64,000 bases of DNA, taken from Armatimonadota bacterium. Lineage in GTDB: Bacteria > Armatimonadota > Fimbriimonadia > Fimbriimonadales > Fimbriimonadaceae. Location: the NCBI GenBank assembly GCA_018268395.1, contig JAFDWQ010000005.1:62001-126000 (forward strand), in the 5' to 3' direction. Shown here piece after piece: positions 8,020-43,308 of this stretch (its first letter is position 1; each line of letters begins with the position of its first letter). The notes below the pieces were generated by a model. The model had not been told where the DNA came from. It worked only from the letters and a program-made list of their open reading frames with translations, and did not search any database. A program made the position numbers and the translations under genes.

Positions 8020-10438
8020 GCCGGTTCTCTGGACTCTTCGGGAGGGTTTCGGGTTCGGCCTCCGAGACGATAGGCTCAGGCCGAAGGGCCCTTCGAGGCC
8101 GTCGTCCCCAAGCCGCCAATCCGCCGCCGAGCGTCATGATACCGACCCCGAGCCAGACCAGGATGGTCAGGGGCTTATAGAACGCCTCAGCCACATAGGC
8201 CGGCTCGTTGTAGTGCACCTGTAAGGTCGCCGACTTGTCCTTGGCGTCGATCGACTGAAGACTGACCCGGAACTTGTCCCCGACCCGCGCCGGCTCGTTC
8301 TCGATCCCGTTCTCGCCCATTCTCAACGTCGGTTCGACGTCGAAGTGGCCGTCCGGCGTCTCGACAGAGACCTGCGCTTTGAACGTCGCTCCCTTCTGTC
8401 CAAGAGGTCCCTCCGTCTTCAGACCGTTGTAAACGAGGAGGAGCTTTTCTTCTTTCAACAACCGTTGGTCGCCCTTCGCCATCTGCGTCGGCCCTGATGC
8501 GTCCATCGTCAGGTTGTGGACGACCAAGTAAAAGTCGTAAAGCCCTCGACCGTGGATCGCGGGCCAGACCATCGGCATCGGTTGGCCGCTTTCGTCCATT
8601 CCGCGGAAGTAGAGCCCCGGTTCCATGACGAACGTCCCGTCCGGTCCGACGGCTTTGACTTTGACCTTGTTGTTCGGGTCGACGAAATTGGTCTTGGACG
8701 GTTCGGCCGTCAGCTTATAGCCGAGCGCATCGGCCGGAGCCGAGGTCGTGATCAGGAACGCGTCGACCTTTTGTTCGAAGCCTCGCGAGAAGATCAACCC
8801 GAGGATCGCAAGTCCGACGCCGACATGGGTCAGCATGCCCGCGAAGGTGGTGAACGAACGCTTGCCTGTTTCGGCCGCCTTCCAGACCGCGCCCACGACC
8901 CCGAAGAGGCAGAAGAACGTCAAGACCATCGTCCAGGCCGTTCTCGAGACCGGGAACTTGGTCAAGAGCATGGTCGTCGCGTTCTGGTCGACGGGCACGC
9001 CAGGGAGATCGATCCCGAAGAACTGGCGGCCGGCGAAATTCACCCAAATGAGGCAGAACCCGGTCAGCATGAGACTGATCGAGAACACGTTCACGATCTT
9101 TCCGACGACGTCGCGCACGGACGCGCCGCGCCACGTCAAGAACGGGCCGACGGCCATCATGACCGTCAAGGGGAGGAAAAAGAAGCTGAGGACCGTGTTG
9201 TAGAGCTGTTCCTCGACCACTTTGGGCTTCTGTCCTGCGATGGTCTGGAAGAACGGGACGCTCATCCCGATGGCCGTCACGATGCCGAAGCCGACCAAGA
9301 GCCAGACGCCGATTCCGATCAGCGACTCCCGGTTGACCGGGAACGGCTTCATGTCTTTCGGCGCGGGCAACGAAGCCTTCAACTGCGTCGCTCGGACTCC
9401 CCAGAGGGTCAGAAAGCCGGTGGTCCCCACGACGACCAAGGTGATCAAGATCCAAAGGGCCTTGCTGTCCATCTCGGCAAAGCTGTGGACGCTCGTGTCG
9501 CCCAGGAACCCCGACCGGGTCAGGAACGTGCCGTAACAGAAGAGCGGGAAGGGAAGTCCGGCCAGCACCGCGTTCGTGAAGAACCACTTTTGACGGGAGG
9601 TCTGCACCATGATGCCGTGCAAGAAGGCGGCGACGCCGACCCAAGGCACGAAGCTCGTGTTCTCGACCGGGTCCCACATCCAGAACCCGCCCCAGCCGAG
9701 CGTTTCGTAGGCCCAGAACCCGCCCATGGCGAGCCCGACCCCGAGAACGGCCGTGCTCACGAGCGCCCATGGTCGGACCGCAGGTAACCACGACGTCATG
9801 TCCTTCCGGACCATGGCCGCGACGGACCACGCGAACAGAACCGTCAAGGAACCAAAACCGCAGAAGATGACGGGCGGATGGATCACCATCCAGTAGTTCA
9901 TCAAAGTCGGGTTCAGTCCGACGCCCGTCGCAGGAACGACGGCTTTGCCGCCGACCAGGTTCAAGTCGAACGGCGACTCGAACGCGAGGATCGCGGCGAC
10001 ACAGGCGAGGAACGCCGCATAGACGACGGAGTACCACCGTCGGTCAGCCCCCGTCCTCCCGGCCGTCAGGAGTCCGAAGAGAGCGGACGCTGAGCCCCAG
10101 AGGAGGATCGAACCCTCTTGGCCCGACCACGTGCCCGCGATCTTGTACTTCAGCGGGGTTTCCTTCGAACCGTGGTCGAAGACGTACTTGTACTGGAACT
10201 GGTCGTTGACGAACAGCGTGACGACCGAAGCCAGAGCGCCGAAGAACGCCACACAACCCAGGGTGAAAGAGAGCCTGGCCCACGCTTCGAGCTTAGGGGC
10301 CTTCGGTACGAAGAGCCACAGGACGAGGCTCGCGACCTGGAGGACAAGGGCGACCACGACGGACGCCGAGCCGAACTGCCCTAATGCGAGCGACCACGGT
10401 GGAGCGGCCACAAGGTTGGATGACGTGTTCGGGTCCAC
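7991..10438 (-). CDS. ccmF: Cytochrome c-type biogenesis protein CcmF (haem lyase)
   Basis: An 815-residue polytopic membrane protein. The tryptophan-rich WWD haem-handling motif WGGFWMWDPVENTSFVPW is at residues 249-266. Many membrane segments flank a periplasmic domain near the C-terminus, which ends in a Pro/Glu-rich tail. CcmF takes haem from holo-CcmE and attaches it to apocytochrome c. It starts with GTG 3 bases after ccmE, so they form one operon. The other ccm genes (ccmABCD, ccmG/H) are not in this window. Confidence 0.93.
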   Translation of the reverse strand: MDPNTSSNLVAAPPWSLALGQFGSASVVVALVLQVASLVLWLFVPKAPKLEAWARLSFTLGCVAFFGALASVVTLFVNDQFQYKYVFDHGSKETPLKYKIAGTWSGQEGSILLWGSASALFGLLTAGRTGADRRWYSVVYAAFLACVAAILAFESPFDLNLVGGKAVVPATGVGLNPTLMNYWMVIHPPVIFCGFGSLTVLFAWSVAAMVRKDMTSWLPAVRPWALVSTAVLGVGLAMGGFWAYETLGWGGFWMWDPVENTSFVPWVGVAAFLHGIMVQTSRQKWFFTNAVLAGLPFPLFCYGTFLTRSGFLGDTSVHSFAEMDSKALWILITLVVVGTTGFLTLWGVRATQLKASLPAPKDMKPFPVNRESLIGIGVWLLVGFGIVTAIGMSVPFFQTIAGQKPKVVEEQLYNTVLSFFFLPLTVMMAVGPFLTWRGASVRDVVGKIVNVFSISLMLTGFCLIWVNFAGRQFFGIDLPGVPVDQNATTMLLTKFPVSRTAWTMVLTFFCLFGVVGAVWKAAETGKRSFTTFAGMLTHVGVGLAILGLIFSRGFEQKVDAFLITTSAPADALGYKLTAEPSKTNFVDPNNKVKVKAVGPDGTFVMEPGLYFRGMDESGQPMPMVWPAIHGRGLYDFYLVVHNLTMDASGPTQMAKGDQRLLKEEKLLLVYNGLKTEGPLGQKGATFKAQVSVETPDGHFDVEPTLRMGENGIENEPARVGDKFRVSLQSIDAKDKSATLQVHYNEPAYVAEAFYKPLTILVWLGVGIMTLGGGLAAWGRRPRRALRPEPIVSEAEPETLPKSPENRHAPEPAPQS

Positions 10439-34867: not shown

Positions 34868-37480
34868 TCAGCGTCGGAACGCGTAATGCGACAGCGAAGC
34901 CGACCCGTTGCCGCTCCGGTCCTCGAGTTCGATTCTTAGCGTCTTTCCCAGGTACGTTCCGAGCGCCCATTCGACTTTGGCGCTCGCCGGGCCCTTGATC
35001 TCGTGCAACGCGTTACCGGAGGTGGCGTCGATGAGGCGGACGCCCGTCTTGACATCGGCCCGGACCACGAAGCTCACCTTGCCGCCCGTCGCGACAAAGT
35101 CGAAACTCTTGACGCTTCCCAAGCGCAACGGGACTTCGTGACCCTGCCCGTCGTCCCCCGTTGACACCATGGCCGACCCGTCCGTCGTGAGACTCGGGAC
35201 GATGGGCCGTACGCCCGTCGTCGCGAAGTCCCATCCGGACGTCAATGTCGCCGGCGGGTCGAAGCGAAAGGTCTTCGACTTGGCGACGGCCGTGCCGCTG
35301 ACCCGGCCTTGGAAGGCGATCGTCCGCTTCGTGCGGGCGTCGACAGGCAACAGGGCTTCGAACCCGAGCGAAGAAATCGTGGCCTTTGCTCGCCAGGCCC
35401 CGCTGCTGAACGTTCCGGCCGGATCGGCCGACCGTTGATCGGGTGCAAGAACGGCCGGCGTCGCGACGACGACGAGGCGTCCTTCTTTCGCTTCGATCCT
35501 GAGGTCGGCGATGCCGGGATTGCGGCGGGCCTCGGTCGAGCGACGCTGAGAGCCGCTTACGGCGTCGACCTGGTGCGGACCAGCGTAGGGACGCGGATTC
35601 AGCGTCAAGATCGAGACGGGTCCGTCGTCGCGACCGGGCACGCAACCATCGACGCCGACCGCCCAACCACTGGAATGGACGTAAAGGCCTCCGAACTCGT
35701 CCAGAGCCCGCGCGCAATCGGCCAAGAACGAGCCTTCTCCGGTTTCGAAGCTCCGTCGCCCTACCGCTTCGCCCGTCCCAAGGTTCAGGTTCTCGCCCGT
35801 CCTGCCGAGATTGTCACCGTCGAGGGGCCCGAGCCCGTTCAAGGTATGGGTCGGATCCGTCGTCCGCGAGAAAAGGCTCCGTAGCAGTGCGACGCCCCGC
35901 TCGAACACGTCTTGACGGTCCAACATAGCGCCCGCCCGCATCAGGTCCAGGGCCGTGTCTCCGACATCGCTGGTGCGACCGGACATTCCTGCGAGCGCCA
36001 GCGTTCCGAAAGTAGGAACGTCGAGCCGAGGGTCGTCGAGGACCGACTGCCCGAAAGCGGCCGTGTCGACCGCCCGGACGAGTGCCGCGAGGTCGGCTTT
36101 CGACGTCCTGCCCGACGCCCTTCGGACCGAGTCGCCCAGGTTGGAACCTGGCCAAGACGATAGATCGAACCGGGAGCCTCCGCTTTCCGAAGCGTCAGTC
36201 ACCTTTTTCGCTTGGGCGTGGACGTCCTCGCCCCAAGTGGCCGTTGCCTGGACTTCCTCGGCGAAAGCAAGGACCGTCGGGTCATGGTCGCCTGTCGAGG
36301 TCCTGTGCCGGAAGAACTCGGCCGCCAGGGAGCGTGCCGTGCGTTCGTCCGCGTCGTCCGGCCATCTGTCAAGCCAGGCACGGATCCACCGCAAAGTCGT
36401 CATGGTCGTCGAGGTGGTCGCCTCTTGGACGGGCAGCACCCTTTCGTAGTCCCACGTCTTCCTACTCAGATCGAACCGCGAGGGGAGTCGCCCGTTCTTC
36501 ATCGGGGCCGCCATCGTCAAAGCGAAGTACTCGCGACCACGTTCCTGCCACGTCTTGATCTTAAGGGTCTGTCCCCACCAGTACATCCCCCAAGCGGCTT
36601 TGGCCGCGTTGCCGCGCGCGTCCCATGAGACGAAGCCGGGCTGTCGCGGCGCACCGACCTCACGACCGGACAACTCGGCGTCCCACCAAGGCCCCTCGCC
36701 TTCCGCCGGCTCTGACTCTTCCTCTTCCCCGGACGGTTTCAGCGCATAAGCGTTCTTCGTGTATCCACTGAAGGGCATGCATTGCGGAAGGGCCGTGGAC
36801 ATCCTCTTGTGCCCGAAGTTCGTCCAGGACCACGTGTTCGCCCGAGCCATCGCCGCGTAATCGTCGGTATCCGGGAACACCACGTACGACCAAGAGCAGA
36901 CCGAGGGGGCCACCAACCGGCCGAGCGTCGGCCTTCCATCGACGATCGTCGTCCGGGCCTTTAACCCGAAACCTGCGAAACCTCCTCCGGTCATGGTCCC
37001 GCAGGAATCTGTGATTTGCCCGTCGTCGGCTGGCAAGCCGATGAACGCCGATCCCAGTGTCGCAAAGCGGGGCATGGGGCCATAACTGTCGGCCAGGGTC
37101 TGAAGCGGCCCGTCCAAGGTTGCGCCCCGAGTGTCGCTGTAACCGTCGTAGATGGAGTCTGTCGGAGACGGCCCTTTGAGTCGTGAGACTTTCGTGTCGA
37201 CCGCGATCCGGTCGCCCGTGACGCGGTAAACGCGGCGCCACGTACCGACAGGGGACGTGAAGTCGACGGCGATCCGGTCGTTTCCGATTCTCTGGGCTTT
37301 GAACGCCGAAGGACGGTTGTGCTTGTCGCTGGAGTACAAGACGGTCGCCCATCGGCCGTCCGGTCCCTTCACCCGAAAAGCGACCGAGACCGGTTTGGAC
37401 GCAGTATCGACAGCGACGGCGACGGTATCGGTCCGGACTTCGAGTTCAGGGGCGAGGGGGAGGAAGGACAGGACCAACAT
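34868..37480 (-). CDS. Large predicted secreted protein of unknown function
   Basis: An 870-residue protein with a short hydrophobic N-terminus (MLVLSFLPLAPELEV). Start chosen here because TAGAAT lies 11 bases upstream; a longer reading would begin at 37576. Residues 60-260 look beta-rich, the middle (roughly 300-620) is helical with many Trp (PWWDAEL, WGMYWWGQTLKIKTW), as in alpha/alpha-toroid enzymes, and the C-terminal part looks like a beta-sandwich. I see no catalytic signature. It faces the repeat protein, with the two stops 5 bases apart, so the pair may be co-inherited. Confidence 0.7.
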   Translation of the reverse strand: MLVLSFLPLAPELEVRTDTVAVAVDTASKPVSVAFRVKGPDGRWATVLYSSDKHNRPSAFKAQRIGNDRIAVDFTSPVGTWRRVYRVTGDRIAVDTKVSRLKGPSPTDSIYDGYSDTRGATLDGPLQTLADSYGPMPRFATLGSAFIGLPADDGQITDSCGTMTGGGFAGFGLKARTTIVDGRPTLGRLVAPSVCSWSYVVFPDTDDYAAMARANTWSWTNFGHKRMSTALPQCMPFSGYTKNAYALKPSGEEEESEPAEGEGPWWDAELSGREVGAPRQPGFVSWDARGNAAKAAWGMYWWGQTLKIKTWQERGREYFALTMAAPMKNGRLPSRFDLSRKTWDYERVLPVQEATTSTTMTTLRWIRAWLDRWPDDADERTARSLAAEFFRHRTSTGDHDPTVLAFAEEVQATATWGEDVHAQAKKVTDASESGGSRFDLSSWPGSNLGDSVRRASGRTSKADLAALVRAVDTAAFGQSVLDDPRLDVPTFGTLALAGMSGRTSDVGDTALDLMRAGAMLDRQDVFERGVALLRSLFSRTTDPTHTLNGLGPLDGDNLGRTGENLNLGTGEAVGRRSFETGEGSFLADCARALDEFGGLYVHSSGWAVGVDGCVPGRDDGPVSILTLNPRPYAGPHQVDAVSGSQRRSTEARRNPGIADLRIEAKEGRLVVVATPAVLAPDQRSADPAGTFSSGAWRAKATISSLGFEALLPVDARTKRTIAFQGRVSGTAVAKSKTFRFDPPATLTSGWDFATTGVRPIVPSLTTDGSAMVSTGDDGQGHEVPLRLGSVKSFDFVATGGKVSFVVRADVKTGVRLIDATSGNALHEIKGPASAKVEWALGTYLGKTLRIELEDRSGNGSASLSHYAFRR

Positions 37481-37491
37481 GCGACCCTTGG

Positions 37492-37497
37492 ATTCTA
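37492..37497 (-). promoter_or_regulatory. -10 element TAGAAT for the 870-residue protein
   Basis: TAGAAT on the minus strand, 11 bases before the ATG at 37480. Confidence 0.45.
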
Positions 37498-37687
37498 TCC
37501 GTTTGAGGGAAGCATCTTCGCCGCCCAGAAACCGACCGGCCCGCAAGTTGACTGCCCTTAAGTTCCCTGTCAGCAAGCCTGCCTGAGTTCGAACGAAGAC
37601 CGGTAAGCACGCCGGGCGAGCCGGTAACGATCCTTCACGAAGAGGCGGAACATCCCTAATGGGAGAGGTTTGCAGGTGAACTTTTAA

Positions 37688-37798
37688 ATGACGATGCTCT
37701 ACTCGTTCGTAGCCCTGATAGTGGCTCTCGCCGCCATAGCGGGCGCCTGGTCGTTGACCAGGGAAGCGCTGCGCAAGGCGGACGTCCCAAGCCCCTGA
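37688..37798 (+). CDS. 36-residue single-span membrane peptide
   Basis: A short frame encoding one hydrophobic helix (LYSFVALIVALAAIAGAWSL) followed by a charged end (TREALRKADVPSP). AGGTG lies about 9 bases before the ATG. It sits alone in the gap between the 870-residue protein and the aldo/keto reductase and is followed by a hairpin terminator, which supports a real transcript. Function unknown. Confidence 0.45.
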   Translation: MTMLYSFVALIVALAAIAGAWSLTREALRKADVPSP

Positions 37799-37828
37799 AC
37801 GTCAGGCTCCGTCGCGTCCCAGCCCTCA

Positions 37829-37851
37829 CCGGCCCCCACATCGGGGGCCGG
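37829..37851 (+). terminator. Hairpin terminator after the 36-residue peptide gene
   Basis: A perfect 9-bp stem CCGGCCCCC / GGGGGCCGG with a 5-base loop, followed by a short T-rich run (CTTGACTTTGTT). It can also serve the convergent aldo/keto reductase gene. Confidence 0.65.
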
Positions 37852-37871
37852 CTTGACTTTGTTACGGCCGT

Positions 37872-38870
37872 TCAGCCGTTGACGTATTCCATCCCCATCG
37901 GCGCGTAGCGGGCACCGGAGGTCTCGAAGCCGTCAAGAGCCTCGATATGGTGCGGGCTGAGCGTCACTTTCGTGGCTCCGACGTTGTCTTCAAGGTAGCG
38001 CACCCGTTTCGTCCCTGGGATCGGGACCATGTCCGGACCCTTCGCGAGCACCCACGCCAAGGCGACCTGGGCTGGAGTGCACAGAAGCTCGTCGGCGACG
38101 GCCTTGACTCGGGCGGCAAGGGCCGAGTTGCGTTCCAGGTTTTCAGGTTGGAACCGTGGAGACTGTCGTCGCCAGTCGTTCTCCTCCAGGTCTTCGGGTT
38201 TCGTGATCGTGCCCGTGAGGAACCCTCGGCCAAGAGGGGAATAGGGCACGAACGTAATGCCAAGTTCCTGGCATGTGGGAATGACGTCGGCTTCGAAGTC
38301 GCGGGTCCAGAGCGAATACTCCGATTGGACGGCTGCGATCGGGTGGACTTTGTGGGCCCTGCGGACCGTTTCCGCCGAAGCCTCGGAGAGGCCGAGGTGC
38401 CGGATCTTGCCTTCTTCCTTCAGGCGCACCATCTCGCCGACCGTCTCTTCGATCGGCACGCGCGGGTCGACACGGTGCTGGTAGTAGAGGTCGATCGCGT
38501 CGGTCCCTAGGCGAGAGAGGCTCAGTTCGGCGCACTTTCTGACGTAGGCGGGCGTCCCGTCCACGATCCAGCCTTTGTCCTGCTGGACGAGGTCCTGGTG
38601 GGAGGTCATCGAGCGGTCGTAGACGTTGCCGAACTTGGTCGCGAGGAAGACCCGGTCGCGGCGCCCCTTGAGCGATCCGGCAAGAAGCTTCTCGTTGTCG
38701 CCAGCGCCGTAGACGTCGGCCGTGTCCCAAAAGTCCACGCCGAGCTCGAGGGCACGGTCGAGCGTTCGGAGGGCTTCGTCTTTGTCCGCCGTCCCATAGG
38801 CCCAAGACATGCCCATGCATCCGAGCCCGAGGGCGCCGACGTTACGGTCTGCGATCTTTCTGTTTTCCAT
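37872..38870 (-). CDS. Aldo/keto reductase (AKR13/YajO-like)
   Basis: A 332-residue TIM-barrel reductase. The catalytic tetrad regions are visible: Asp and Tyr in FWDTADVYGAGDNEKLL, Lys in VFLATKFG, His in LYYQHRVDP. NADPH-binding segments near the C-terminus include VPIPGTKRVRYLEDNVGA. It reduces carbonyl compounds; the substrate is unknown. It is the last gene before the AT-rich island. Confidence 0.9.
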   Translation of the reverse strand: MENRKIADRNVGALGLGCMGMSWAYGTADKDEALRTLDRALELGVDFWDTADVYGAGDNEKLLAGSLKGRRDRVFLATKFGNVYDRSMTSHQDLVQQDKGWIVDGTPAYVRKCAELSLSRLGTDAIDLYYQHRVDPRVPIEETVGEMVRLKEEGKIRHLGLSEASAETVRRAHKVHPIAAVQSEYSLWTRDFEADVIPTCQELGITFVPYSPLGRGFLTGTITKPEDLEENDWRRQSPRFQPENLERNSALAARVKAVADELLCTPAQVALAWVLAKGPDMVPIPGTKRVRYLEDNVGATKVTLSPHHIEALDGFETSGARYAPMGMEYVNG

Positions 38871-38904
38871 TCGAGTGGGTTTCCTGTGTAGCGGAGTCGG
38901 TCGG

Positions 38905-38919
38905 GGCGGCGAAGCCGCC
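38905..38919 (-). terminator. Small hairpin directly after the first small membrane gene
   Basis: GGCGGC-GAA-GCCGCC, one base beyond the TAG stop of the 123-residue gene in its sense direction. It replaces the repeat terminus found at the equivalent spot after the duplicate gene at 41386. No T run follows, so termination is only possible. Confidence 0.35.
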
Positions 38920-38920
38920 G

Positions 38921-39292
38921 CTAGTCTAAGAGTTTCCTTTCAGGAACAGTGGTGAGAATAAGGAGAGAAATCTCAAGGCCCGCAAGTCCGGCAATCAAAT
39001 TGATCCAAATGCTGCCAAACTGCAAAGTCAAAGACGCACCAATTGTTGCAAGAAGACAGACAGTTGCTATCCCCGCCGAAAGGGAGATCCGTTTGAAGTA
39101 CCGCGATGTGACAAGGATACATGTCAATGCCACCCAACCAACAAGTAATTGCGCGAGGTGTGACAGGTTAGTGCCTGTGCGGCTAATTTCGTAAATCGCA
39201 AGCAAGACGATTATAATGCACAGGACGGCGGTCAGGCCTGATACCCATCCTGAGCTTCGACGTAATTCTCTTTGCGGCTGGTTGGTCTTCAT
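38921..39292 (-). CDS. Small membrane protein, 123 residues (copy 1)
   Basis: Three or four hydrophobic segments (residues about 18-36, 48-62, 70-90, 93-112) with a basic N-terminus (MKTNQPQRELRRSSGW). No family recognised. A second copy lies at 41386-41757 with 9 of 123 residues different, five of them within the first 11 residues. The duplicated block is 407 bp in both copies (38921-39327 here), covering the gene and 35 bases before its ATG. Base composition is lower in GC than the flanks. Confidence 0.7.
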   Translation of the reverse strand: MKTNQPQRELRRSSGWVSGLTAVLCIIIVLLAIYEISRTGTNLSHLAQLLVGWVALTCILVTSRYFKRISLSAGIATVCLLATIGASLTLQFGSIWINLIAGLAGLEISLLILTTVPERKLLD

Positions 39293-39399
39293 ATGAGTGA
39301 AGTATTGGGGATGGCTTCCTTTCAGTCAAAGCCGCACGTACTTACAAGTACTCCTAACTGAATCGTCGCGTAAAGTGCAGCTTCTATCACAACTGTTTA

Positions 39400-39587
39400 G
39401 CTGCCTCCAGACTCCGCAAGGCACCTCAAGCCGCACGTCGCCGAACCTAGTCTGGAGGCTTCGTCCGCGCCGTCTCACAACGCGCGGTTTCACGGGCCGG
39501 TCTGATGCAGCGCCCTTGCCCCGGTCTGCAACGGTCTTCGGGCGGGTGGAATGAAGCGTGGACACCGTTGCCAGACCGAGCCACCCC
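39400..39587. repeat. 188-bp hairpin-rich repeat, copy 1
   Basis: Matches 42759-42946 in the same orientation and length with about a dozen mismatches by eye. It contains an inverted repeat GCCTCCAGACT (39403-39413) / AGTCTGGAGGC (39449-39459). A second pair is CGGTCTGCAACGGT (39522-39535) and ACCGTTGCCAGACCG (39564-39578), the latter pair with one bulged base. It fills most of the 330-base gap between two small membrane genes. Frames across it change too many residues between copies to look coding. Confidence 0.75.
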
Positions 39588-39622
39588 CAGAAAGACGTCA
39601 CCGCGGGTCGATTCATCATTCG

Positions 39623-39904
39623 TCATTGGCGGTCATGAGGTTTTTCGGCTAAACCTTCTTTTTGTCCTTGCATCTTTTTAGATAATAGCGAGCTAACATA
39701 TAATACCAAGCTGGCTGCGATCAAGAGCGGTACGACATTCCGATGTGTAGCTACTGACCCGCAAGCAACTATCGAGGCTACAGCCAAGAGCAGAAAAAGA
39801 ACGAGCATCCATTTATTGTTCTGCAGTATTGACAGATGCCAAGCCAATCCAACAAGGATAGATAATACCCAAAGAGGAAAATACAGCGGCACGATCCGGA
39901 ACAT
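39623..39904 (-). CDS. Small membrane protein, 93 residues
   Basis: Hydrophobic segments at about residues 5-25, 32-50 and 58-75, then a charged tail (SKKMQGQKEGLAEKPHDRQ). AT-rich codons unlike the chromosomal neighbours. TATAGC 7 bases before the ATG may be a -10 element. The 3' flank leads into the 188-bp repeat; the 5' flank ends at an inverted-repeat element (40021). No family recognised. Confidence 0.55.
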   Translation of the reverse strand: MFRIVPLYFPLWVLSILVGLAWHLSILQNNKWMLVLFLLLAVASIVACGSVATHRNVVPLLIAASLVLYVSSLLSKKMQGQKEGLAEKPHDRQ

Positions 39905-40020
39905 GAATAACGCTATAGGGAATGCTGCCGAAACAAAAATGGCAGACTACACTATGAGTGTTAATAGTTTGCTCATGGCCCAACACCCTCAGATATTGCT
40001 TGTAGGTCTATAAAGAATTC

Positions 40021-40305
40021 GGCAGTTGGCCCGACCGATGGTGACTTCGCGCAGGGTGGCCGGGCTGAGAGGGGATGGCTCGCGTCCGTTTGCAGCCCAG
40101 TTCCGAAGGAACTTACCTCCGTCGCTGGTCGTGCGCGGAAGGGTCTCGCGGCCATGGGTAAGGTTCTACCCTGAGAGCGCCCTGCTCCAAGCGGTTTTGT
40201 CCTTCGGACCTGTCTGTCGCGGCCAATCGAGAAGATTGCCCATGAAAGGACTCGCGACAAGCAGGCCACCCCGGATGCCGTCACCCTCGGTCCTGCCACC
40301 CGCCG
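40021..40305. mobile_element. MITE-like element, copy a (285 bp)
   Basis: The left end reads GGCAGTTGGCCCGACCGATG then GTGAC. The right end (40280-40305) is its inverted counterpart, GTCACCCTCGGTC then CTGCCACCCGCCG. Internal palindromes GTTCCGAAGGAAC (40100-40112) and GTCCTTCGGAC (40199-40209) recur in the other copies. It occupies the 472-base space between two small genes. No coding potential of its own is convincing. Confidence 0.7.
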
Positions 40306-40376
40306 CCGCGGTGCCAAGTACATGGCCACACCCAATCGCAAGCGGGCAAGAGCGGTGGCGGTCATGACCTCTGGTG

Positions 40377-40664
40377 TTAGTCACTTTTCGAAACCTTGAC
40401 TGAACAAGACAAGAAATACAACGAACCGAGTACGGTTAGTCCCAGGATAAGAGGAGCATAGGGGCCATCAGCTCCCAGTTTTCTGACTGGTTTCCTCGGG
40501 GCCGCTGAAGCAGCTTTCCTTGCTTGGTCATAGAACGGCATGTTCAACCGTATTGCCACAAGGAAGTATACAGAAACGGCTAGCACTGTAAGGCAAATGA
40601 TCGTTACAGGAAAGTGAAAGAAGATCGTCCTTCCAAAGAGTGTTGTTTTCCGGATCATATTCAT
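40377..40664 (-). CDS. Small membrane protein, 95 residues
   Basis: Two membrane segments (about residues 13-38 and 70-87) separated by a basic Pro/Ala loop (KAASAAPRKPVRKLGADG). It starts 8 bases after the stop of the 139-residue gene, with the repeat terminus between them supplying AAGGGTGA as a possible ribosome site. The two are therefore probably co-transcribed and may function as a pair. A longer frame beginning inside the repeat (40691) is rejected. No family recognised. Confidence 0.6.
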   Translation of the reverse strand: MNMIRKTTLFGRTIFFHFPVTIICLTVLAVSVYFLVAIRLNMPFYDQARKAASAAPRKPVRKLGADGPYAPLILGLTVLGSLYFLSCSVKVSKSD

Positions 40665-40671
40665 ACGGCGG

Positions 40672-40693
40672 GTCACCCTTGGTCTGGCCACCG
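40672..40693. repeat. Solitary element terminus between the 95- and 139-residue genes
   Basis: GTCACCCTTGGTC then TGGCCACCGT on the plus strand. It matches the right end of the ~285-bp elements but no partner end is adjacent. It contains the TGA stop (40673-40675) of the upstream gene. Confidence 0.6.
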
Positions 40694-41092
40694 TATGAAG
40701 TCGTTCAGCAGCTCCACAGTCGTGACCTTAAAAGGTGGCAGCACTTCGACGTAGGCCCACAGGGCTTCGCAATCCCGCTGGCTGCGCCCTTCAATGTGCT
40801 TCAGGATCGATTCCGTTAGGGACGCTTCCGTCCAATCAGCCGACTCGGCGTGACCCACGTTTCCAGGGTTGAGCAACGCGCCGGACAACTGGTGCACCTG
40901 TTCGTTTACCAAGTAGTACGGGGAGTCGTACACTTGGGCGACGCGACATGCGACTTGTCGTTCCCCCTCGTGATCTTCCATCAACCATCCTCGGACCACC
41001 ACCGTCAGGGCGTGGATCAACTTCAGTCGCAAGGAAAGGAGTTCGCTGGAGCTTAATTGCCGAAGTCGCCGAAAGTCACTCGAGGTCGTCAT
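40673..41092 (-). CDS. 139-residue soluble helical protein, immunity-like in style
   Basis: Unlike its island neighbours this protein has no membrane segment. It begins with basic helices (DFRRLRQLSSSELLSLRLKLIHALTVVVRGW) and an acidic middle. The last residues, IRWPDQG, and the stop codon are encoded by the repeat terminus at 40672-40693. CAGGAG lies 5 bases before the ATG. I recognise no family; its small size, acidic middle and pairing with a membrane protein resemble immunity proteins, but that is weak. Confidence 0.6.
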   Translation of the reverse strand: MTTSSDFRRLRQLSSSELLSLRLKLIHALTVVVRGWLMEDHEGERQVACRVAQVYDSPYYLVNEQVHQLSGALLNPGNVGHAESADWTEASLTESILKHIEGRSQRDCEALWAYVEVLPPFKVTTVELLNDFIRWPDQG

Positions 41093-41115
41093 ACGGACTC
41101 CTGTACGTCTTAAAC

Positions 41116-41385
41116 GGCGGGTGGGCAGACCAATTGTGAATGCCCGGAGTATTGCACGGGTGAAACGGGCCGCAACGCGTCCTCATTGTACAACCGCCCC
41201 CGCCCGTTTGCACCCATGTCCGAAGGCTCGCAGCGACGTGGCCATCTGGGAGAGCCGATGTCCCACCTTGGAGAGCACACGCGTTCGAACAGCATGTTCC
41301 TTCGGAACCAGGACAAGGCCGCACGATCATCGCCCTTGTCCTGGCCACCCAAGCGAGAGGTCGCCCTTGGTCTTGCCACCCGCCG
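41116..41385. mobile_element. MITE-like element, copy c (270 bp)
   Basis: The left end is GGCGGGTGGGCAGACCAATT then GTGAA. The right end (41360-41385) is GTCGCCCTTGGTC then TTGCCACCCGCCG. The internal palindrome GTTCCTTCGGAAC (41296-41308) and CCGTTTGCACCCATGTCCGAAGG align with copies a and b in the same orientation, though this is the most diverged copy. The stop codon of the duplicated membrane gene begins at the very next base. Confidence 0.7.
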
Positions 41386-41757
41386 CTAGTCTAAGAGTTT
41401 CCTTTCAGGAACAGTTGTGAGAATAAGGAGAGAAATCTTAAGGCCCGCAAGTCCGGCAATCAAATTGATCCAAATGCTACCAAACTGCAAAGTCAAAGAC
41501 ACACCAATTGTTGCAAGAAGACAGACAGTTGCTATCCCCGCCGAAAGGGAGATCCGTTTGAAGTACCGCGATGTGACAAGGATACATGTCAATGCCACCC
41601 AACCAACAAGTAATTGCGTGAGGTGTGACAGGTTAGTGCCTGTGCGGCTAATTTCGTAAATCGCAAGCAGGACGATTATAGTGCACAGGACGGCGGTCAG
41701 GCCTGATACCCATCCTGAGCTTCGACTCAATTCCTTTTGGGAGTGGCTAGTTTTCAT
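41386..41757 (-). CDS. Small membrane protein, 123 residues (copy 2)
   Basis: Same length and fold as the gene at 38921-39292, with 114 of 123 residues identical. Differences cluster in the N-terminal cytoplasmic-looking segment (MKTSHSQKELSRSSGW). The 407-bp block 41386-41792 fits exactly between the right end of copy c and the left end of copy b of the inverted-repeat element, with no spare bases. A TACACT element lies 8 bases before the ATG; the first copy has TACTTC there. Function unknown. Confidence 0.7.
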   Translation of the reverse strand: MKTSHSQKELSRSSGWVSGLTAVLCTIIVLLAIYEISRTGTNLSHLTQLLVGWVALTCILVTSRYFKRISLSAGIATVCLLATIGVSLTLQFGSIWINLIAGLAGLKISLLILTTVPERKLLD

Positions 41758-41765
41758 ATGAGTGA

Positions 41766-41771
41766 AGTGTA
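41766..41771 (-). promoter_or_regulatory. -10 element TACACT for the second membrane gene copy
   Basis: TACACT on the minus strand, 8 bases before the ATG at 41757. Confidence 0.45.
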
Positions 41772-41792
41772 GGGAATGGCTTCTTTTCAATC

Positions 41793-42075
41793 GGCGGGTG
41801 GCCCGACCGAAGGTGCGTTCACGATAGGTGGCCGGACTGAAAGGAGATGGCTTGTGCCCGTCGGCAACCCTGTTCCGAAGGAACTTACCTCCGTCGCTGG
41901 ATCTGCGCGTAAGGGTGTCACGGCCACGGGACGGTTCTACCCTGAGAGGGCCCTGCTCGAGGCAGATTTGTCCTTCGGACATGCCTGTCGCGGCCAATCG
42001 AGAAGATGGCCACTAACAATCTCGCGACTAGCCGGCCACCCCGGATGCCGTCACCCTCGGTCCTGCCACCTGCCG
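41793..42075. mobile_element. MITE-like element, copy b (283 bp)
   Basis: The left end is GGCGGGTGGCCCGACCGAAG then GTGCG. The right end (42050-42075) is GTCACCCTCGGTC then CTGCCACCTGCCG. Internal palindromes lie at 41872-41884 and 41970-41980, as in copy a. It is the best-matched partner of copy a and runs in the same orientation. Left flank ends TC and right flank begins TC, a possible 2-bp duplication, not repeated at the other copies. Confidence 0.7.
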
Positions 42076-42133
42076 TCGAGCGAGGAACGCCCTACGTCAG
42101 GAAATGACTTTTCACCACGGAATCTATTGGGAG

Positions 42134-42159
42134 GTCACCCTCGGTCAGGCCACCCGCCG
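42134..42159. repeat. Solitary element terminus at the end of the 115-residue gene
   Basis: GTCACCCTCGGTC then AGGCCACCCGCCG, a full right-end terminus 58 bases after copy b. On the minus strand it encodes the last residues (SGGWPDRG) and the TGA stop of the 115-residue gene. Confidence 0.65.
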
Positions 42160-42482
42160 CTAGCTGCGCGCCTTCGCCTAACGATGTCGTCGAATGCCTC
42201 GCATACGGCCACCACCCAAACGCTGGGAAGCGCGAGAAGGTACGGCTCAAAGTTACAAAAGCAGAAGGCCATACTCGAGCCAAGCCCGACGAGGCAGGCC
42301 GCTAGGCGGAGGCCGTGCGATGAAAGGGCTAGGAGACCGCTGACCACCATGACTCCGCCAAGCCATTGTAGTGCGGTGGCGTGGGAACGTTCGACGTAAA
42401 CGGCTACGATGGACAGGATGATGCATCCGCAGACAATCGCGACAGTCATGTACCTACGTATTAGAGTCGACAGTGATGTCAC
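42135..42482 (-). CDS. Small membrane protein, 115 residues
   Basis: Three hydrophobic segments (about residues 13-28, 39-55 and 58-95), then an Arg-rich end (DDIVRRRRAASGGWPDRG) whose last eight residues come from the repeat terminus. The GTG start at 42482 follows TATCCT by 16 bases with GAGGAAA in the short leader; ATG at 42449 is the alternative. No family recognised. Confidence 0.55.
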   Translation of the reverse strand: MTSLSTLIRRYMTVAIVCGCIILSIVAVYVERSHATALQWLGGVMVVSGLLALSSHGLRLAACLVGLGSSMAFCFCNFEPYLLALPSVWVVAVCEAFDDIVRRRRAASGGWPDRG

Positions 42483-42556
42483 TGCAAGCTTTCCTCATAG
42501 GATATGGCCATTAACGCTCCGGCAACTGCGCACGTACTGATGAGGGTAGATGTTAC

Positions 42557-42582
42557 GGCTGGGTGGCCTGACCGTGGGTGAC
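42557..42582. repeat. Solitary left-type element terminus
   Basis: GGCTGGGTGGCC then TGACCGTGGGTGAC, left-end orientation, upstream of the 115-residue gene. With a degenerate right end at 42986-43005 (GTCACCTTCGGTC then ATGCCGC) it could frame a ~449-bp composite that holds the second 188-bp repeat. Confidence 0.5.
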
Positions 42583-42758
42583 CTCCCGATGGGTGGCACG
42601 ATGACGGGCCGCGCCTTCGGCGACCGACCGTTCCCGTCTGACCGGCGGCCCTTCGTCGTGTCCGGGACGGATCCTCAAGTACGCTCGGAGGGTGCTGAAG
42701 GGTGCTCCGAAGCGACGGGTCTTCAACGACCCTGGCCATGCGCACGAGCTTACCTTTG

Positions 42759-42946
42759 GCTGCCTCCAGACTACGCACGTTACCTCAGACCGCACGTCGC
42801 CGAACCTAGTCTGGAGGCTTCGTCTGCACCATCTCACAACGCGCCGTTTCACGGGCCAGTCTGATGCAGCGCCCTTGCCCCGGTCTGCAACGGTCTTCGG
42901 GCGGGTGGAATGAAGCGTGGACACCGTTGCCAGACCGGGCCACCCC
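42759..42946. repeat. 188-bp hairpin-rich repeat, copy 2
   Basis: Second copy of the repeat at 39400-39587, same length and orientation. The arms GCCTCCAGACT (42762-42772) / AGTCTGGAGGC (42808-42818) and CGGTCTGCAACGGT (42881-42894) / ACCGTTGCCAGACCG (42923-42937) are unchanged. About half of the mismatches fall in the loop of the first hairpin. Confidence 0.75.
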
Positions 42947-43005
42947 GTCCAACAATCTCGCGACTAGCCGGCCACCCCGGATGCCGTCACCTTCGGTCAT
43001 GCCGC

Positions 43006-43260
43006 AGCTGACCTCTGGCTACCCCAGTCTCGGTACGTGTGCCGGCCGAGCAGCTCCTTGTTACGCTAGCGCAGCAACTAGGCACCCACCGATCCCCACC
43101 GTCGGCACACGGCTGAACCTCTTTGCAGGCCAGGACACGCTCGGGGGAAAAGTCCGCTCTTCACTGACCTATCAGCAGAACCTGTAGACGTCCTCTTCTA
43201 AAACGTAGACGCAAGCCTAGACGCGACATGAATTCTCCGCCTGGAAACCCGTCAAGGGCC
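43006..43260. other. Non-coding stretch before the dcw promoter
   Basis: No gene, strong hairpin or element terminus is visible. It is the tail of the 959-base gap between the last island gene and mraZ; the upstream part holds the repeats and the downstream part the mraZ promoter. Confidence 0.5.
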
Positions 43261-43273
43261 CGAAGGAGGGAAG

Positions 43274-43308
43274 AAAGTGGTGAAACGTGGGGATTTCTGA
43301 TGTACAGT
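43274..43308 (+). promoter_or_regulatory. Likely MraZ boxes and promoter of the dcw operon
   Basis: Two GTGG cores 10 bases apart (43277-43280 in AAAGTGGTG and 43287-43290 in AACGTGGGG) match the tandem AAAGTGK-type repeats that MraZ binds. TGAAAC (43281-43286) and TACAGT (43303-43308), 16 bases apart, form a plausible -35/-10 pair overlapping the boxes. This predicts autorepression by MraZ. The leader to mraZ is then about 130 bases. Confidence 0.55.

Follow-up and report, generated by a model that had tools for sequence, protein, structure and literature searches.

Probable REPIN-like elements with ends common to a RAYT-bearing element in an Armatimonadota genome

REPINs, which are inverted doublets of REP sequences with RAYT transposases as their partners, are described from Pseudomonas fluorescens SBW25, where the spacings are 71 to 110 bp (PMC3116915). 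TIRtrons are RAYT genes flanked by long terminal inverted repeats (TIRs) that are also found as dispersed repeats, and composite ends, in which a REP is combined with a different stem-loop, are known from P. putida and P. fluorescens (PMC3733652). Within class 2 of the TnpA_REP enzymes, members that fall at the edge of subclass 2.2 are reported to have GTGG motifs, and the foot guides cleavage (PMC6006769, PMC8266576). In one enzyme, cleavage is reported to have moved to CC under a GTGG guide, with cutting at CA as well (PMC8266576). Bacterial MITEs (NEMIS, RUP, ERIC, and others) are short and noncoding and have TIRs of 15 to 30 bp (PMC3733652).

The repeats considered here lie in a 64,000-nucleotide stretch of contig JAFDWQ010000005.1 from an Armatimonadota bacterium of the Fimbriimonadaceae; this whole stretch is referred to as the window. 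Three elements within it, E1 to E3, very probably belong to a dispersed, nonautonomous REPIN-like family whose partner enzyme is a RAYT (TnpA_REP) of the Y1 HUH type. Like the REPINs of SBW25, they contain an inverted REP pair whose members fold with the spacer as one hairpin, they are dispersed, and a RAYT is flanked by the same repeats (PMC3116915); unlike them, they have a further outer inverted repeat, measure 270 to 300 bp (about 155 to 190 bp in a short form), and number in the tens rather than the hundreds. With TIRtrons and TIRYTs they have in common a RAYT-like gene within TIRs that form a moderately abundant dispersed family (PMC3733652), but the TIR motif is GGGTGGCCNGACCNNGGGTGA instead of GGGGWSAS, the host belongs to another phylum, and the GTGG-foot hairpins are well preserved. 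The E family combines both arrangements, with GTGG-foot REP pairs inside a TIR common to a RAYT element, and this composite REP-plus-TIR end is mildly unusual. The HUH plus Y--NP signature is shared with the class 2 TnpA_REP enzymes that accompany GT[A/G]G REPs (PMC6006769, PMC8266576). As in bacterial MITEs, the elements are short, noncoding, and bounded by TIRs; they differ from MITEs in having no visible target duplications, a Y1/HUH partner, and internal foot-plus-hairpin modules. In the literature searched, no earlier description of RAYTs or REPINs in this lineage was found.

Elements E1 to E3 and their ends

A first-pass annotation of the window had recognized three repeats in one orientation, with TIRs of about 26 bp, and all of this holds with slightly refined boundaries. 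The full-length E1 (286 bp) occupies positions 40020 to 40305, E2 (271 bp) positions 41115 to 41385, and E3 (284 bp) positions 41792 to 42075, all on the plus strand; each was delimited by repeat searches and alignment, supplemented by DNA matches in the genome (E1 and E3) and by folding (E2 and E3). Their outer inverted repeats are about 25 nt long with the consensus CGGCGGGTGGCCnGACCnnnGGTGA, occupying in E1 positions 40020 to 40045 (plus strand) and 40280 to 40305 (minus strand) by repeat comparison, and the TIRs of all three elements were recovered as repeat families D5 and D8 and as inverted pairs I6 to I9 and I12. Identity between E1 and E3 is about 84% from end to end, and E2 resembles both in its ends and architecture but has diverged in the middle.

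Each element consists of an outer inverted repeat, a GTGG-foot hairpin (the REP), a spacer, an inverted hairpin (also a REP), and the second outer inverted repeat; the outer inverted repeats alone hold no canonical foot-plus-hairpin REP. As single strands, the elements fold into closed multibranch structures, and none of 200 dinucleotide shuffles folded as well (z = -3.6 for E3, -4.0 for E2, and -4.2 for the reverse strand of E1). The palindromes tipped with CCGAAGG or CCTTCGG that had been noted earlier are indeed present: these motifs form the loops of small TTCCGAAGGAA stem-loops, situated directly 3' of the larger hairpins.

Inner hairpin modules

The left inner REP of E1 (40054 to 40114, plus strand), detected by a covariance model (R1) and by folding, comprises a GGGTGG foot, a hairpin, and the TTCCGAAGGAA stem-loop, and the right one (40200 to 40270, minus strand), detected by a foot-plus-stem scan and by folding, comprises a GGGTGG foot, the hairpin CCTGCTTGTCGCG/CGCGACAGACAGG, and a TCCGAAGGA stem-loop. 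In E2, the left module (41150 to 41226, plus strand; inspection and fold) has a degenerate foot and a longer loop, and the right module (41298 to 41349, minus strand; foot scan and fold, z = -5.0) has a GGGTGG foot followed by the hairpin CCAGGACAAGG/CCTTGTCCTGG. Both modules of E3 are partly decayed, the left in its stem (41826 to 41886, plus strand; covariance model and fold; right module at 41971 to 42040, minus strand; inspection and fold).

The hexanucleotide GGGTGG, which contains the REP-type GT[A/G]G foot, precedes most inner hairpins, and the left and right hairpins are inverted relative to one another. Apart from the foot of the left module of E2 and the stems of E3, the tetranucleotide stands immediately 5' of an imperfect palindrome, as in REPs, and stems of 8 to 16 bp begin right after GGTGG in the right modules of E1 and E2 and in many genomic copies. 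Across the collected regions, there are 33 GGTGG feet directly 5' of a stem, as opposed to 8 in the reversed control.

Conservation of the stem was assessed in 24 aligned copies of the left module. Double changes occur in six pairs (18 cells, versus 5.3 after shuffling, with 0 of 500 shuffles as high), and covariation is 0.142, compared with 0.050 in shuffled alignments and at most 0.064 with slid partners; because the shuffles ignore relatedness, the slid control carries more weight. Pairing in this stem reaches 89.9%, versus at most 50% with slid partners, and the stem has thus been kept by compensatory change. Taken one at a time, the inner hairpins of E1 and of E3 surpass their shuffles only weakly (z of about -1.2 to -1.7).

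In E1 and E3, the two inverted REPs (left on the plus strand, right on the minus strand) can fold together with the spacer as one hairpin, and inverted R1 pairs also occur in two genus-mates (G001, contig C80, and G002, contig C4). REPINs proper are short units, with spacings of about 70 to 110 bp, in high copy number and with over-represented doublets, whereas the units here measure 155 to 300 bp and are present in tens of copies. Because they exceed typical REPINs in length and fall short of them in abundance, we call them REPIN-like.

RAYT genes, RAYT fossils, and dispersed copies

A search for the Y1_Tnp family yielded four places in the genome. Among the open reading frames (ORFs) near the copies is one of 177 amino acids on contig C12 (positions 8352 to 8885 of locus L042) that matches Y1_Tnp as well as the curated model NF047646 (REP_Tyr_transpos; 86.8 bits, cutoff 80). 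Its best match in the PDB is 4ER8, the TnpA_REP of E. coli (E = 9.6e-6), and it carries the HUH motif DHVH and the motif YIHDNP. By these family and motif matches, the predicted protein is a REP-associated tyrosine transposase (RAYT/TnpA_REP). The gene is bracketed by CGGCGGGTGGCCCGACC (near position 8297) and GGTCACCCTGAGTCTTGCCACCCGTCG (ending near position 8997), about 700 bp apart, which are the ends of E1 to E3. A GTGG hairpin lies just inside the right end of this RAYT element; at the left end, the outer repeat is present and the hairpin is weak.

A fossil of such an element lies in the window itself. Its left end (42558 to 42600, plus strand; identified from repeats and by comparison with the C12 element) consists of the outer TIR and a further GGGTGGC foot, and is followed by a REP hairpin with a GGGTGG foot (42591 to 42660, plus strand; foot-plus-stem scan) and by the start of a RAYT gene (KRRVFNDPGHAHELTF; 42708 to 42757, plus strand) that is 84% identical at the DNA level to the C12 gene over 50 bp. 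The gene is broken by a copy of a second repeat family, D2 (42755 to 42946, plus strand; repeat search), beyond which stands the right end of an element (42954 to 43003, plus strand; model positions 228 to 278 by alignment), so that the fossil sits between two element ends. An isolated end, a TIR half-copy, is also present at 42113 to 42159 (minus strand; repeats and alignment). The first-pass annotation could name no parent transposase; a RAYT between the same ends on C12 and the fossil in the window now fill that place. The half-elements at 42113 to 42159 and 42558 to 42600, the fossil at 42708 to 42757, and the dispersed copies had been missed by that annotation. The copies in the window look old and inactive, given the 16% divergence between E1 and E3, the decayed stem of E3, and the dead RAYT adjoining them.

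The other copy of D2 in the window, at 39396 to 39587, is 93% identical to that at 42755 to 42946, with the palindrome GCCTCCAGACT...AGTCTGGAGGC. Elsewhere in the genome, D2-like units flank a different RAYT gene (L045, 1415 to 1942), which itself interrupts a RAYT of the first family (N-terminal fragment at L045, 1209 to 1286); L045 is a set of nested RAYT elements.

Association of RAYTs with these repeats extends beyond C12. This genome has a second RAYT (L046, on contig C3), which scores 76.3 bits, just under the NF047646 cutoff, and is flanked by R1-type REPs in a 40-bp inverted pair of 97.5% identity. A genus-mate encodes a RAYT (L147; NF047646, 84.8 bits) that is 58% identical to the C12 protein, and at its right end a GTGG-foot hairpin is followed by GCCACCC and then by AAGGTCACCCTTTAGTCTGGCCACCCGTCGC, the outer repeat of the E elements. 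Thus, the same repeats flank the RAYTs on C12 and C3 as well as that of the genus-mate. In RAYT relatives, most of which belong to other phyla, inward-facing pairs of the GGGTGGC type occur within 300 bp in 11 of 20 close relatives (39% identity or more) but in only 1 of 54 more distant ones; outward pairs, counted as a control, occur in 2 of the 20 and in none of the 54.

A DNA search with E3 returned 25 full or partial copies in the genome, on nine contigs (C1, C3, C4, C5, C6, C8, C11, C14, and C15), and the end motif GGGTGGCCNGACCNNGGGTGAC, with up to 3 mismatches, has 40 matches, versus 3 for its reversed control. Copies of about 270 to 300 bp are few (about eight); full-length relatives, with unrelated flanks, stand on C3, C4, C6, C8, and C9. 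A short subfamily of about 155 to 190 bp comprises seven copies (two on C1 and one each on C5, C8, C11, C14, and C15) that are 88 to 96% identical in pairwise hits. All of them stop sharply at or near GCCACCC(GCCG), with unrelated DNA beyond; BLAST breakpoints hinted at left boundaries at the three feet, but a second scoring was scattered for two copies, so that these boundaries are tentative. The first-pass annotation had proposed local duplication of a structured regulatory element should neither further copies nor target duplications be found; dispersed copies rule this out as the sole explanation, and, together with the ends common to a transposase-bearing element, they bear out the noncoding, nonautonomous character assigned to E1 to E3.

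The R1 covariance model, which describes the left module, has 34 matches in this genome, 7 or 8 in each of three genus-mates, and 19 in a further genome of the same family (G061). In other genomes of the order, matches are few or absent, though RAYTs are common there; this would follow were every RAYT paired with a REP of its own, but it is not itself proof. Across the genus, the DNA search with E3 found matches (E ≤ 0.001) in this genome alone, and it was the covariance model that detected the relatives. The 19 R1-type REPs of the more distant G061 lie on its contigs C2, C5, C8, and C16, and six of them have identical scores, which suggests recent spread there. In the present genome, several pieces of the element and one near-full copy surround a 399-amino-acid tyrosine recombinase (L029, 5259 to 10274), a region that is perhaps an integrated element. 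Short ORFs of tandem repeats reading EVRSSPGLENHFPH occur on two contigs (L034, 2224 to 2493, minus strand, and L026, 7290 to 7628, plus strand).

The array in the window is flanked by an aldo/keto reductase gene on one side and mraZ on the other. Small ORFs at 38921 to 42482, all on the minus strand and several of them membrane-like, stand between the repeats, and several have a G+C content of 0.44 to 0.48, as opposed to about 0.64 in the surroundings. One of them (38921 to 39292) has a 95% duplicate at 41386 to 41757 that exactly fills the gap between E2 and E3. Searches of Pfam and NCBIfam gave no convincing family for the small ORFs, and a search of 112 further genomes of the order found no relative of the duplicated ORF. 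Genus-mate G003 lacks about 37.86 to 43.30 kb of the window and also 34.87 to 37.54 kb; no pair of empty and filled sites was found, the whole array region being missing from G003, so that it offers no precise empty site. The interval from 34868 to 43300 varies among genus-mates: in G003, the repeat array is missing from this place, as are the aldo/keto reductase gene and a 902-amino-acid gene.

Such surroundings invite two other explanations. The repeats could be locally duplicated regulatory elements, such as terminators or structured RNAs, serving the small genes of the array, as their strong RNA fold and their placement between codirectional ORFs (one a 95% duplicate filling the E2-E3 gap) would suggest; this is highly improbable, however, since copies stand on many contigs beside unrelated genes, the window has no match to any Rfam family at gathering thresholds, and a transposase gene is enclosed by these ends. 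A secondary effect of the elements on transcripts is possible. Alternatively, an integron-type cassette array with attC-like recombination sites would account for low-G+C, minus-strand ORFs that each adjoin a repeat and for the precise bounds of the duplicated ORF unit. Against it, single copies of the repeats are found away from arrays, a RAYT lies between such repeats, the ends (CGGCGGGTGG) by inspection lack RYYYAAC/GTTRRRY cores, and none of the seven tyrosine recombinases of the genome lies in the array; an integron array is highly improbable. The first two of these observations led to the rejection of the integron idea, which had drawn on the one-strand, low-G+C ORFs and on a tyrosine recombinase close to the copy on C4.

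Class and proposed mechanism

At the eight full-length copies, inspection of the flanks revealed no target-site duplication, which fits a Y1/HUH enzyme. The first-pass annotation had read the elements as MITEs and had looked to such duplications; its reading as noncoding, nonautonomous elements stands, now with dispersed copies and with ends that recur on a transposase-bearing element, but the MITE of the DDE type with target duplications that it implied does not agree with their absence or with the Y1/HUH partner. In that classical form, a DDE transposase outside the RAYT family would recognize TIRs of about 25 bp (ends CGGCGGGTGGCCNGACC) and leave target-site duplications. TIRs at both ends, a lack of coding capacity, dispersal, and a size in the range of 70 to 300 bp would all suit it; still, it is very unlikely, in that the C12 gene enclosed by these ends encodes a Y1/HUH RAYT rather than a DDE transposase, the flanks are free of duplications, and the GT[A/G]G-foot hairpins, kept with covariation, are REP hallmarks for which a DDE MITE has no need. 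The lack of target duplications and the Y1/HUH REP-associated tyrosine transposase partner make REPIN/BIME a better class for these elements than classical MITE.

Under the REPIN-like reading, an E element would be either a RAYT element minus its gene, as suggested by a RAYT-bearing element with the same outer ends and a REP hairpin beside the gene, or a set of REPs that the RAYT element spreads. By analogy with characterized TnpA_REP enzymes (PMC8266576, PMC6006769), we infer binding, cleavage, and mobility of the E elements as follows: the hairpins would fold while the strand is single-stranded, the RAYT would bind the foot plus hairpin, its tyrosine would cut where the GTGG guide directs it, with CC or CA as the predicted dinucleotide, and the strand would be rejoined elsewhere, leaving no target duplication.

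A more speculative and rather doubtful proposal is that the family stands, as a working intermediate, between REPtrons and true transposons. An outer inverted repeat with several tandem GGGTGRCC feet would then bound a single mobile unit made up of the RAYT gene and its REP pair, and the noncoding elements would be deletion derivatives, maybe with alternative left ends at the feet. If this were true, the ancestors of REPINs would be MITE-like derivatives of a RAYT transposon.

In practical terms, the benefit is modest, namely, the correct annotation of a repeat family. The assignment would extend RAYT/REPIN biology to a further lineage and answer the question of the transposase raised by the earlier annotation. 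The composite ends, together with a genome that contains several RAYT genes as well as fossils, may provide material on the descent of REPINs from deletion derivatives of transposons.
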